Positions 13,360 to 20,386 of a DNA stretch of 32,457 nt are shown one piece after another. The DNA is from Melioribacteraceae bacterium. Lineage in GTDB: Bacteria > Bacteroidota > Ignavibacteria > Ignavibacteriales > Melioribacteraceae. The stretch is from the NCBI GenBank assembly GCA_028282005.1, contig JANQIV010000052.1:1-32457 (forward strand). The letters are read 5' to 3'. The notes under the pieces are model-generated. The model was not told where the DNA came from. It searched no databases and saw only the letters and a list, made by a program, of their open reading frames with translations. The translations under genes were made by a program, and so were the position numbers. Within the stretch, counting starts at the first letter, position 1. Every line of letters starts with the position of its first letter.

Positions 13360-13483
13360 TTTGGAAAGAAATTTTTAAGTTAACGGCCTTGCCGCTAAGC
13401 TGCCGCCCAGATTTACCCGCCATCTTTGTGGCGGGGCGACAATGCTTAACTTCCTACTATCATTATTAGCCGGACTTTCCAAA
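13360..13483. repeat. Nested inverted-repeat module between the FtsX operon and the HupE gene
   Basis: Three inverted repeats are nested on one centre region: an outer 9-bp pair TTTGGAAAG / CTTTCCAAA (13360-13368, 13475-13483), a middle pair AAGTTAA / TTAACTT (13377-13383, 13446-13452) and an inner hairpin CCCGCCA / TGGCGGG with a 6-base loop (13416-13435). The segment is more GC-rich than the flanking intergenic DNA and lies 8 bases past the HupE stop. It could be a terminator complex, a miniature element or a recombination site. The short frames crossing it on both strands have no coding support. The remaining intergenic DNA back to 13138 holds only the palindrome at 13169-13200. Confidence 0.45.
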
Positions 13484-16608: not shown

Positions 16609-16879
16609 TTACATAGATCAGTTGTGTAAAATGGCTCTGACAAAAAACATGAAAAGGTAAAGAATTTGTATCGTATTGCCATATCGACGAATCGTTTTTG
16701 ATGAGGAGATATCTTTTTTATCGCGTGAGTTCAAATCCACTTCTAAGACTTAGCTTCGCTGAGCTCACAAGCTCGGTTCTCACTCCCCAAAAAAACGTTG
16801 TGAGTTCGAAATGACAGTCCAGAATTTCACAAAATATTAAGTATTTACAAAATCTCTATTTCACACAACTGGTTACATA
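16609..16879. mobile_element. MITE-like non-coding element with inverted ends and a possible target duplication
   Basis: A 14-bp inverted repeat with one mismatch (CAGTTGTGTAAAAT at 16619-16632; ATTTCACACAACTG at 16858-16871) bounds 253 bases with no credible gene. A direct repeat TTACATA lies just outside each end (16609-16615 and 16873-16879), as a target-site duplication would. Inside are a GAGCT/AGCTC hairpin (16761-16774) and two copies of GTGAGTTC. No transposase is in the window. The rest of the intergenic interval 16458-16983 is AT-rich, with T-runs and TTATAAC at 16887 and 16925, and nothing else that I can support. Confidence 0.4.
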
Positions 16880-16983
16880 ATTTTTTTTATAACCACATAA
16901 AACTGACATATCGTCTAGTTTTATTTATAACATTATGAAGATAGTTGTTTTAGGTATTCGAAACAAAGAAATTTTAAAAGTTG

Positions 16984-17211
16984 GCTTTAAAACTTTCTTA
17001 TTTAGCAGTTTTTATTTTTCTTATACCCCAAATTGGAGGGCTAATTTTTATTTGCAACAACAATTTGCTGGTCACTTTGGTACGTCCGATAATTCGAGAA
17101 CGTTTTACTTATTACTTAAACACAATTTATATTAAAATCTTCTTCCTTACTTTTTACAAACTTCTGACCATGAACAACGACGTTCGGGTTGAGTAGCTGG
17201 TTATAAAGCTT
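16984..17211 (-). repeat. attC-like site A, decayed at its distal end
   Basis: On the minus strand this follows the stop of 17212-18507 and starts AAGCTTTATAAC (complement of 17200-17211), then CAGCTACTCAACCCGAACG. The segment 17044-17209 is a long, clearly homologous direct repeat of 18606-18764 in site B, with the same order of blocks. The expected opposite arm (AACCCG-ACGTC) is missing. The best match to the distal core is GCTTTAAAAC at 16984-16993, one base off GCTTTATAAC. Short plus-strand frames through here (from 16935 and 16981) look spurious. Confidence 0.5.
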
Positions 17212-18507
17212 TTATTCTGGATACTCCTTTTCACTATATGGAGTAGTAGTAATATTTTGAAACCAATTTATTTTTTTACAATCTTCTTGCACTTGCCTCA
17301 ATTTCTCATCAGAAAACGGAATGATTTCTTTGTACATAAATTTAAATTGACTCATATTATGTCTCACAGCCAAACAAAATATATTTTTCATTTTGTATTT
17401 AGTCCAATGTGCAAAACCATCAATTGCTAATTCCATTGCAAACTCGTTAATTTCATCTGAAATGTCCTCAGCATAAATAAAACAGACAAGACCCCAATCT
17501 TTAACTTCTGTGTATCTTTTTGCCATGAAATAATCTCTTGACGCTTTGGGATTAAACTTCTCATAAAAATTATAAAAGGTTTTAGCAATCATTCTTCGTT
17601 CAAACCTATTAAAGCTAAACAATATTTTGGCAAAAATATGACCATTTTCTAAAGATAAAATTTCACGTTTTACCAAGTTGTCAATAAAGTAACTAATTCT
17701 GTCTTCTTCTTTTTTTGCTGCTACCTTTTTATTCGAAAAATAATTATCCCATTCACCTTCAATGTCTAACCACAACCCTGTATACTCGTCCGATTTTACA
17801 ATTGAACTAAAATCTCTTTTAAATAAAAAATAATGAGCAAGTAAATCTTTTTCTGTTCCAGTTATTGTAATAGATTTGCGATTTCTAAAATCCCTTTTAG
17901 TAGAATATTCTAAAAATTCAATATTTGCTTCATCAGTATAGTCTTCATCTGGACCAGAAAGCATGATTACATCTTTGGTCTTAAATAATTCTTCTCTTTT
18001 TTCTAAATACTCAATAAAATCAGAAATTGTATCAAGCTCATTTGTTAAAACTAAAAAAGCTTCTTTATTAAAAATATTTATAAATTCTTTTTTCTGTTCG
18101 TCTGATCCTATTAAATAGAAAAGCTCACCTTCGCCCAAATTGATAATTACGCGAAATATTTTAGTGTAATCATCTGGGTCAAAATTATAAACTCCTCTTT
18201 CAGGATGAATAAAAGTTATTTTATGAGATGAATTGAAGAGTTTTCTTTCAGCTCCATAAATTTGCCTAATTGCCTTGTCAATAGTATTCTTGAAATATCT
18301 CTTGTGATCACCTTTAAAAGTGTAATTTTTCACTGAAATAATAATGCAAATATTTTCAAATAGAATTAAGAGATCAGATATTTCTTTTTTATCACCATTT
18401 TCATCTTTGGGATTTGGGAAACACCAATATTTCACAAATGAATTAAATGCTAATTCATTTACAAAATCTTCTCCTAAATCACCCTTTTCTTTATGATTCT
18501 CTGACAT
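17212..18507 (-). CDS. Orphan protein with N-terminal PD-(D/E)xK-like motif (cassette gene 2)
   Basis: A 431-residue soluble protein of no recognised family. The N-terminus matches the spacing of a PD-(D/E)xK nuclease core of Mrr/NERD type: GE (E13) on a first helix, SD (D45) on a strand, then IISVKNY (S58-x-K60), with Ser in place of the usual acidic residue. The remaining 330 residues are charged and mostly helical, with Phe/Tyr-rich segments (FSFNRFERRMIAKTFYNFYEKF) and no membrane helix. The DNA is markedly AT-rich. The stop codon lies beside GTTATAAAGCTT and the start 8 bases inside its exact inverse AAGCTTTATAAC, so the gene fills a unit with matched ends. A DNA- or RNA-targeting defence role is plausible; it is inference from motif and context. 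Confidence 0.75.
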   Translation of the reverse strand: MSENHKEKGDLGEDFVNELAFNSFVKYWCFPNPKDENGDKKEISDLLILFENICIIISVKNYTFKGDHKRYFKNTIDKAIRQIYGAERKLFNSSHKITFIHPERGVYNFDPDDYTKIFRVIINLGEGELFYLIGSDEQKKEFINIFNKEAFLVLTNELDTISDFIEYLEKREELFKTKDVIMLSGPDEDYTDEANIEFLEYSTKRDFRNRKSITITGTEKDLLAHYFLFKRDFSSIVKSDEYTGLWLDIEGEWDNYFSNKKVAAKKEEDRISYFIDNLVKREILSLENGHIFAKILFSFNRFERRMIAKTFYNFYEKFNPKASRDYFMAKRYTEVKDWGLVCFIYAEDISDEINEFAMELAIDGFAHWTKYKMKNIFCLAVRHNMSQFKFMYKEIIPFSDEKLRQVQEDCKKINWFQNITTTPYSEKEYPE

Positions 18508-18516
18508 TTTTTCTAA

Positions 18517-18766
18517 GCTTTATAACGGCGTTGCTGATAACCCGACGCCCAAAGCAACAATGATTAGGTCAAAACGAACAACCCAATTTTTATGCAAACG
18601 TTGTTATTTTTATTTGCAACAACGATTTGCTGGTCACTTTGCTACGTCCAATTAGTCGAGAACGCTTTACTTAAACACAATTTATATTAAAAACTTCTTA
18701 CTAACTTTTTACAACTTCACGACAACCAACAACGGCGTTCGGGTTGAGCAGCTGGTTATAAGCCAA
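18517..18766 (-). repeat. attC-like site B between the two cassette genes
   Basis: The ends fold back on each other. TTATAAC (18520-18526) pairs with GTTATAA (18755-18761), and AACCCGACGCC (18539-18549) pairs with GGCGTTCGGGTT (18734-18745) with one unpaired base. A poorly paired spacer lies between the two stems, and the intervening terminal loop region is about 185 bases. Outer stem, spacer, inner stem with an extrahelical base, and a variable terminal structure are the parts of an integron attC. The core GTTATAA departs from consensus GTTRRRY, and the total length is greater than usual. It is homologous to site A. Confidence 0.6.
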
Positions 18767-18804
18767 GATTTATTTTCTGTTGTATTTAATTCTAGACAAT
18801 ATTA

Positions 18805-20292
18805 TTAATTCTTCAGTTGCTCAAGTATTTTTGGAACTTCTGGATGTTCCTCATACCAAATAACATTTAACCCAATTTCTTTAAAAGTATCTTCCTGTAT
18901 TTTATGATGTAATTTAGAGAACTCTTGAAATTTTTGAGATTTGCTTGATAAGGAAGATTTAAATTGTCTTTCTAAAATTATGTAATGTTTACACCCAGAA
19001 AATTTTTCAGAGTGTATACTAAATAATCTGCGCAAATTTGGGTCAACACCTGAAAGCCCAATAAGAACACATGTTTTTTCACGAAGAGCTTTCATTTGTA
19101 CAATATTTGACCAGGAATACGGATCAGTTTGCATTTGATGATACCCATCTTCACTGAAAACTAAAATTGAATCATCTAAGTTTTTATAGTCTGAAATACT
19201 CTTGGGAATAAATCCGTGTACATGATATACGGAAAGTTTTGTAGGAATTTCAAAATCGCCTTCAGTATAAATACTTTTGTATTCTACCCCATTTCTCTTG
19301 AGATGATTTTCCAGTAAATCGTCAAAATTATATGTAATAACAGCCTCTATTCCAACTTGTCTACGTCTCGGTATAGATAATTTTGCGATTGTTTCTAATA
19401 GCAATTGCTCTTTGATTGGTTTAACGTTCCTATATAAAGACTTTCTAATTTCATTAACAAATTCTTCACCTAATGCGTTTCTAATATAAGAAGCACTAAC
19501 TAATGGAGCACCATTTTGCATATTAACTAATTCTTCAGCAAATTCATTTTTTTCTGAATTAGTAAGCTTCGTCGATATATTCTGATTAATAATTGATAAA
19601 TTTAACTCCTTTAGTAATTCATTCCAATTAGGGACACCAGCATCTTTCGATGTCCCCGCACCAATCATTAATACAATTTCATCTTTTTGATATGCACTTT
19701 TCAAGGAATTTAATTGACGTTCTCTATCATCTTTCCAATTATCTTCAGATTTTTTTGCTTGCTCAATGGTTGAATTAAAGATTTCATTTCCGATATTCTT
19801 AATAAGTTTTGAACTGACTTCATTGTATTTCTTCGAAAGAGCAACAATATTATTATAGTCCCAAACCTCAACAACCATCTTTAGCTTGCGAAGTTTAATT
19901 TTCCGATTAATGTAATCCCGATCTATATCATTAAGTTCACTACCAAATATTATTAAACAAGAATTAAACTCATTTCCCAAATATTTAAGTTGACTTAGAA
20001 ATTTTGTAATCACTTTGGGATTAAAAACAGCTTTAATTTCGATAAGAGTAATTCCCTGAAGATTTGAGATTCCATCATGTGATAATGCATCAAATTGATT
20101 AACCCTAATTGAATCCTCTTCTCCTGAGATTTTAATTTCTGGGAATTTACGTAGTTCAGATTTACCTTCACTTTTTAACAGATTATTTAGTAATCCAAGA
20201 CAAAAGACCTCGAATTCACGACTAAATGTCCTTAAATTATTGCTCTTGGAAAACTTTAAATTTCTATCCCAATAAGTATTCTCAATTTCCAT
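18805..20292 (-). CDS. PD-(D/E)xK-like nuclease / SIR2 fusion protein, candidate defence gene (cassette gene 1)
   Basis: A 495-residue protein in two parts. Residues about 20-150 carry a restriction-endonuclease-like core: E26 on a helix, D68 in NQFDALS and E85-x-K87 in LIEIKA. Residues about 200-440 are a SIR2-type NAD-binding domain: GAGTSKDAGVPNW (211-223), TYNFDD (320-325), catalytic-type histidine H359 in YHVHG and GLSGVDPNL (412-420). SIR2 domains in phage-defence proteins (Thoeris ThsA, DSR, SIR2-Argonaute systems) deplete NAD on sensing infection. The N-terminal domain could sense or cut nucleic acid. GGGAG precedes the ATG. The gene is AT-rich and is bounded by the 12-bp inverse pair GTTATAAGCCAA / TTGGCTTATAAC. 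The domain calls are good; the defence role is inference. Confidence 0.85.
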   Translation of the reverse strand: MEIENTYWDRNLKFSKSNNLRTFSREFEVFCLGLLNNLLKSEGKSELRKFPEIKISGEEDSIRVNQFDALSHDGISNLQGITLIEIKAVFNPKVITKFLSQLKYLGNEFNSCLIIFGSELNDIDRDYINRKIKLRKLKMVVEVWDYNNIVALSKKYNEVSSKLIKNIGNEIFNSTIEQAKKSEDNWKDDRERQLNSLKSAYQKDEIVLMIGAGTSKDAGVPNWNELLKELNLSIINQNISTKLTNSEKNEFAEELVNMQNGAPLVSASYIRNALGEEFVNEIRKSLYRNVKPIKEQLLLETIAKLSIPRRRQVGIEAVITYNFDDLLENHLKRNGVEYKSIYTEGDFEIPTKLSVYHVHGFIPKSISDYKNLDDSILVFSEDGYHQMQTDPYSWSNIVQMKALREKTCVLIGLSGVDPNLRRLFSIHSEKFSGCKHYIILERQFKSSLSSKSQKFQEFSKLHHKIQEDTFKEIGLNVIWYEEHPEVPKILEQLKN

Positions 20293-20327
20293 AACTGAAC
20301 TCCCAATTCAATATTTTTTTTTGCCCA

Positions 20328-20386
20328 TTGGCTTATAACATATACTTATGCGGAAGCAATCTGTGATACCAAATGCATGTTATACC
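20328..20386 (-). repeat. attC-like site C, upstream of the SIR2 cassette
   Basis: TATAACAT (20334-20341) and ATGTTATA (20377-20384) form an 8-bp inverted repeat around 35 bases containing CATATACTTATG. The inner end GCTTATAAC continues into TTGGCTTATAAC, which matches the complement of the other end of the SIR2 cassette (18755-18766) over 12 bases. It is short enough for an ordinary attC. It could belong to a lost upstream cassette, or act as an attI-like junction. Confidence 0.45.

Follow-up and report, generated by a model that had tools for sequence, protein, structure and literature searches.

Two AT-rich genes in a Melioribacteraceae genome very probably form an integron cassette array, with an integrase on another contig

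Two AT-rich minus-strand genes, set between chromosomal genes of an ordinary kind (one for an M3 peptidase, the other for a DcuC-type carrier), are almost certainly integron gene cassettes, forming a two-cassette array that lacks an integrase of its own in a genome where an integron integrase (IntI) is encoded elsewhere, on contig C221. This reading is supported by the presence of IntI in the same genome, by homologous attC sites behind it, by cassette boundaries shared with a relative, and by covariation in the attC arms; the likely integrase of the locus lies outside it. The window, that is, the whole stretch of DNA analysed, is the 32.5-kb contig C180 of the genome (G000), a draft of 4.09 Mb in 271 contigs.

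Read along the minus strand, the array is made of the core GTTATAAGCC, ORF2, site B, ORF1 and a truncated site A. Each unit is a gene followed by its own attC, both units have the same orientation, and each cassette is bounded at G^TT, its start completing its own attC. The first cassette begins with the core G^TTATAAGCCAA (20328..20339, minus strand), which equals the R'' end of the same cassette and has no attC hairpin ahead of it; it carries ORF2 (18805..20292, minus strand; 495 aa), which has a SIR2-like domain at residues 317-444, and site B, a complete attC of 242 nt (18520..18761, minus strand; R'' at 18755-18761, in-situ R' at 18520-18526). The second carries ORF1 (17212..18507, minus strand; 431 aa) and site A (17044..17206, minus strand), which consists of R'' and the 5' half, the L'-R' half being missing. 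Outside the array, a lone attC 3' half, apparently a decayed attC, lies at 13381..13408 (minus strand) behind a HupE/UreJ gene. The region of the M3 peptidase and HupE has a G+C content above that of its neighbours; a short intergenic stretch between site A and the M3 peptidase is enclosed by an inverted repeat, imperfect and about 25 nt long (ACACAACTG..., 16610-16890), which may be a small repeat element.

The original prediction started from the matched ends of the two units, and these are exact: a perfect 12-bp inverse pair, GTTATAAAGCTT, lies at 17200 and 18515 in the ORF1 unit and another, GTTATAAGCCAA, at 18755 and 20328 in the ORF2 unit, identical inside each unit and different from one unit to the other. 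Ends of this kind arise because each unit is a cassette, i.e. a gene with its attC, bounded at G^TT. While 12-bp inverse pairs of any kind are not rare in the AT-rich stretch (5 seen versus 2.2 expected), those beginning with GTT are 2 against an expected 0.03 (300 dinucleotide shuffles). Matched ends are also a habit of the order, where they span about 10 bp: in 88 cassettes, picked on the inner (L) stem alone and not on matched ends, the match between the start of a cassette and its own R'' end averages 9.3 nt, compared with 4.9 nt in controls that pair starts with other cassettes.

Perfect inverse ends on each gene would also be borne by small transposon-like elements, each with its own terminal inverted repeats and each mobilised by some unrelated enzyme, a recombinase or a transposase, instead of an integron integrase. 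Such an origin is highly improbable, for the ends differ between units and match within them, as expected for circular cassettes and as seen across the 88 cassettes; moreover, the adjoining attC is homologous to sites behind IntI, and neither unit has a transposase-like ORF. Another possibility is that ordinary intergenic hairpins, either terminators or REP-like, follow the genes and that the ends match by chance. The other 12-bp inverse pairs which AT-rich DNA yields by chance speak for it, as does the fold of site B, not significant when taken alone (see below); yet a second genome has ORF1 between the same ends, and the matched ends found throughout the order, together with covariation, exclude it, leaving it a negligible probability.

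As to the structure of the sites, the parts that had been foreseen in site B are present: its plus strand, which is the bottom strand for the minus-strand genes, folds into an outer stem, an asymmetric spacer, an inner stem, an extrahelical base and a long loop. That fold alone, however, is no better than those of shuffles (z -1.33), and single-strand folding of each site separately gave no significant result; covariation was therefore used as structural support. The features by which attC sites are recognised were found, namely R'' and R' boxes with paired AAC/GTT triplets and the G^TT crossover position, and an imperfect hairpin composed of an R stem, an unpaired asymmetric spacer, an L stem, extrahelical bases on the L'' arm and a variable terminal loop. 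The AAC/GTT triplets of site B are invariant in 32 aligned attC. These 32 sites, which are diverse, give a covariation score of 0.523, versus 0.150 in shuffled and at most 0.126 in slid alignments, the outer pairs weighing less as they were partly selected for and the shuffles leaving relatedness in; 13 of the 16 inner pairs have changed on both sides. Strong covariation of the inner-stem columns is likewise seen in 140 cassettes picked on matched ends alone, whose layout is the canonical one (PMC2727003): R stem, asymmetric spacer, L stem, extrahelical base, further stem and extrahelical base. An extra stem within the spacer was considered as a new feature and rejected; it proved to be the usual L box, situated below the conserved extrahelical base. 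An Rfam scan of the window matched no family.

Site A had been proposed to be an attC homologous to site B, and the homology is borne out by 85% identity over about 160 nt, but for the 5' half only. The stretch 20328-20386, put forward as a further attC, is not one: a scan with the 3'-half pattern found no attC 3' half in it, no attC features were seen, and the fold of 20324-20386 is not better than those of shuffles. It is a bare core-like boundary, of the kind that a worn site, or the left edge of an inserted cassette, would show.

Two departures from the consensus, the core GTTATAA and the great length of the attC, are real and yet ordinary for the order, rather than peculiar to this locus. 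In 23 genomes, the core is GTTATR in 56% of 268 attC 3' halves and fits GTTRRRY in 25%, GTTATAA falling outside GTTRRRY along with 75% of the order's sites. The median attC length in the 140 cassettes is 183 nt, most being 158-233 nt long, whereas the size range cited in the literature is 57-141 bp (PMC12901181); size-limited searches may miss such sites. Integrons and scattered cassettes are common in the order: IntI scores above the cut-off in 24 of 58 relatives, and an attC 3'-half match (at most 2 mismatches) occurs in 127 of 164 genomes, where a lone match can be due to chance, given that reversed-pattern controls also match. A large cassette array was noticed at G140:C1:481571-505926, where about 20 attC 3' halves, all pointing the same way, lie close to the end of a contig. 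Host-specific attC types as a general rule were rejected, as attC types recur across genomes.

Precise ends at GTT, for which a comparison of strains had been suggested, were tested by gene instead. A protein 75% identical to ORF1 is encoded in an array of G041, a genome from a different family within the order; the G041 copy has lost one base near its start. The DNA alignment of the two cassettes starts at CCG|TTATAAAGCTT, spans the gene and stops at AAGCTTTATAACCAGC, beyond which there is just the weak similarity that is general to attC sites; the homology is therefore bounded exactly by the cassette ends. Recurrence of the hairpin next to unrelated genes, as expected of a cassette site, is confirmed by site-B-type attC adjoining unrelated genes in G002 and G004. 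An empty site was not found in the DcuC neighbourhood of three relatives (DcuC at 83-85% identity), where gene order is not conserved.

The same comparison points to a possible exchange of attC bodies. The G041 copy of the ORF1 cassette has a different attC body and yet identical 12-bp ends, and unrelated genes of G000 have attC sites with 85-89% identity to site A. Another case concerns a HigA-like antitoxin cassette gene, 86-94% identical at the DNA level among G056, G055, G053, G066 and G015 (loci L258, L189, L261, L260 and L263): in the five genomes the R'' box behind it is nearly the same and the arms that come next differ, the switch point lying at or just after R''. In G055 the arms of the site do not pair, which suggests a mosaic. 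It is conceivable, if rather unlikely, that attC bodies and cassette genes are shuffled separately, through integrase recombination at R'' (and not only at R') or through gene conversion; with altered attC sites, a shift of recombination to R'' is on record (PMC2727003). The same gene with different attC bodies may also reflect plain, faster divergence of the attC. When gene pairs alike at the 3' end but differing in attC body were sought under stricter conditions, only within-array duplicates that had kept their attC came up, so that the case for exchange rests on individual examples. Were it true, the swapping of attC bodies would explain why attC sites are alike within a host while the genes come from elsewhere; with one gene occurring in several genomes beside an almost unchanged R'' but different attC bodies, the origin of attC uniformity becomes testable.

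No intI was found on the 32-kb contig C180, and an integrase adjoining the array, as in a complete integron, is absent from the window locus. The array is integrase-less, as predicted, but only locally, for a search for an integron integrase was successful elsewhere in the genome: on C221 the integron-integrase model scores 410 bits against a cut-off of 265 bits. Over its length the match aligns with the IntI structure of Vibrio cholerae (PDB 2a3v, 3e-76), and it has the GLR, HxxR, LGH and Y motifs of tyrosine recombinases; the sole stop counted inside it is the gene's own end, and the integrase is apparently intact. Behind it the attC 3'-half pattern has 5 matches in one orientation, as compared with 2 in the window and 1 in the reversed-pattern control, and one of the C221 attC sites is 88% identical to site B. 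The complete integron (C221, L010:9620-16734) comprises intI, five attC and cassette genes, the latter encoding TPR, transglutaminase-like, DUF6973 and DnaJ proteins, with a ParE/Phd toxin-antitoxin cassette in reversed orientation. Since the cassettes are interior in both contigs (C180, 32.5 kb; C221, 43.6 kb), these are most likely two loci rather than one array split by the assembly.

The cassettes may have reached the locus through off-target insertion by the C221 integrase, or a rearrangement may have placed the array there. Handling in trans may still be possible for the ORF2 cassette, while that of ORF1 would be locked in because site A is truncated. Whether anything moves at present is a separate matter from the cassette-array explanation, with which the following alternative is compatible: a decayed relic, in which the cassettes arrived through an integron and none is now excisable, has a substantial chance of being true, somewhat short of even. 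The loss of the 3' half of site A, the further decayed attC at 13381, and the boundary at 20328-20386 not being an attC, which leaves only one complete attC in the array, all agree with decay; on the other hand, nothing is missing from site B, whose arms pair like those of the other sites, each ORF is uninterrupted, neither pair of 12-bp ends has been damaged, and the genome has an apparently intact IntI.

With regard to the cargo of the putative array, both genes probably act in phage defence. The SIR2-like domain of ORF2 is nearest to the ThsA defence proteins (ThsA-like in PADLOC); ORF1 has a weak similarity to NERD (nuclease-related) domains, below threshold. Full-length relatives of ORF1, about 42% identical, occur on plasmids of the Bacteroidota Hymenobacter and Tenacibaculum, where the annotated neighbours include either a HipA-type toxin or, in one case, nuclease and restriction genes; none was found in viral contigs. 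Structures of both proteins predicted with no alignment had a mean pLDDT of 36-38, too poor for use. The cargo fits the idea of cassettes carrying phage defence.

Among known systems, the locus shares with attG insertion, the off-target insertion of cassettes reported by Loot et al. 2024 as cited in PMC12901181, an array sited on the chromosome at a distance from the integron and a bare core at its left edge. The likeness is incomplete, the right edge of the window's array being truncated and the empty site not having been found in three relatives. The cluster of attC sites lacking integron-integrase (CALIN) is similar in having attC cassettes without an adjoining intI, and its known origins include off-target insertion by an IntI located elsewhere in the genome (PMC8618304). 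The criterion for a CALIN is at least 2 attC within 4 kb with no intI nearby; with a complete attC about 1.3 kb from a truncated one, the array would be classed as a CALIN-type element, counting the truncated site. It differs in this very composition, and in that the genome also has a full integron with homologous attC. Complete integrons were previously known in Ignavibacteriae (PMC9024848), and the layout of C221 is that of the sedentary chromosomal integrons of Bacteroidota, Chlorobi and Ignavibacteriae, with intI, an attC array, mixed cassettes and a reversed toxin-antitoxin cassette; what sets the sites described here apart from these is the greater length of the attC (median 183 nt versus 57-141 bp, PMC12901181) and a core that is mostly GTTATR, not GTTRRRY.
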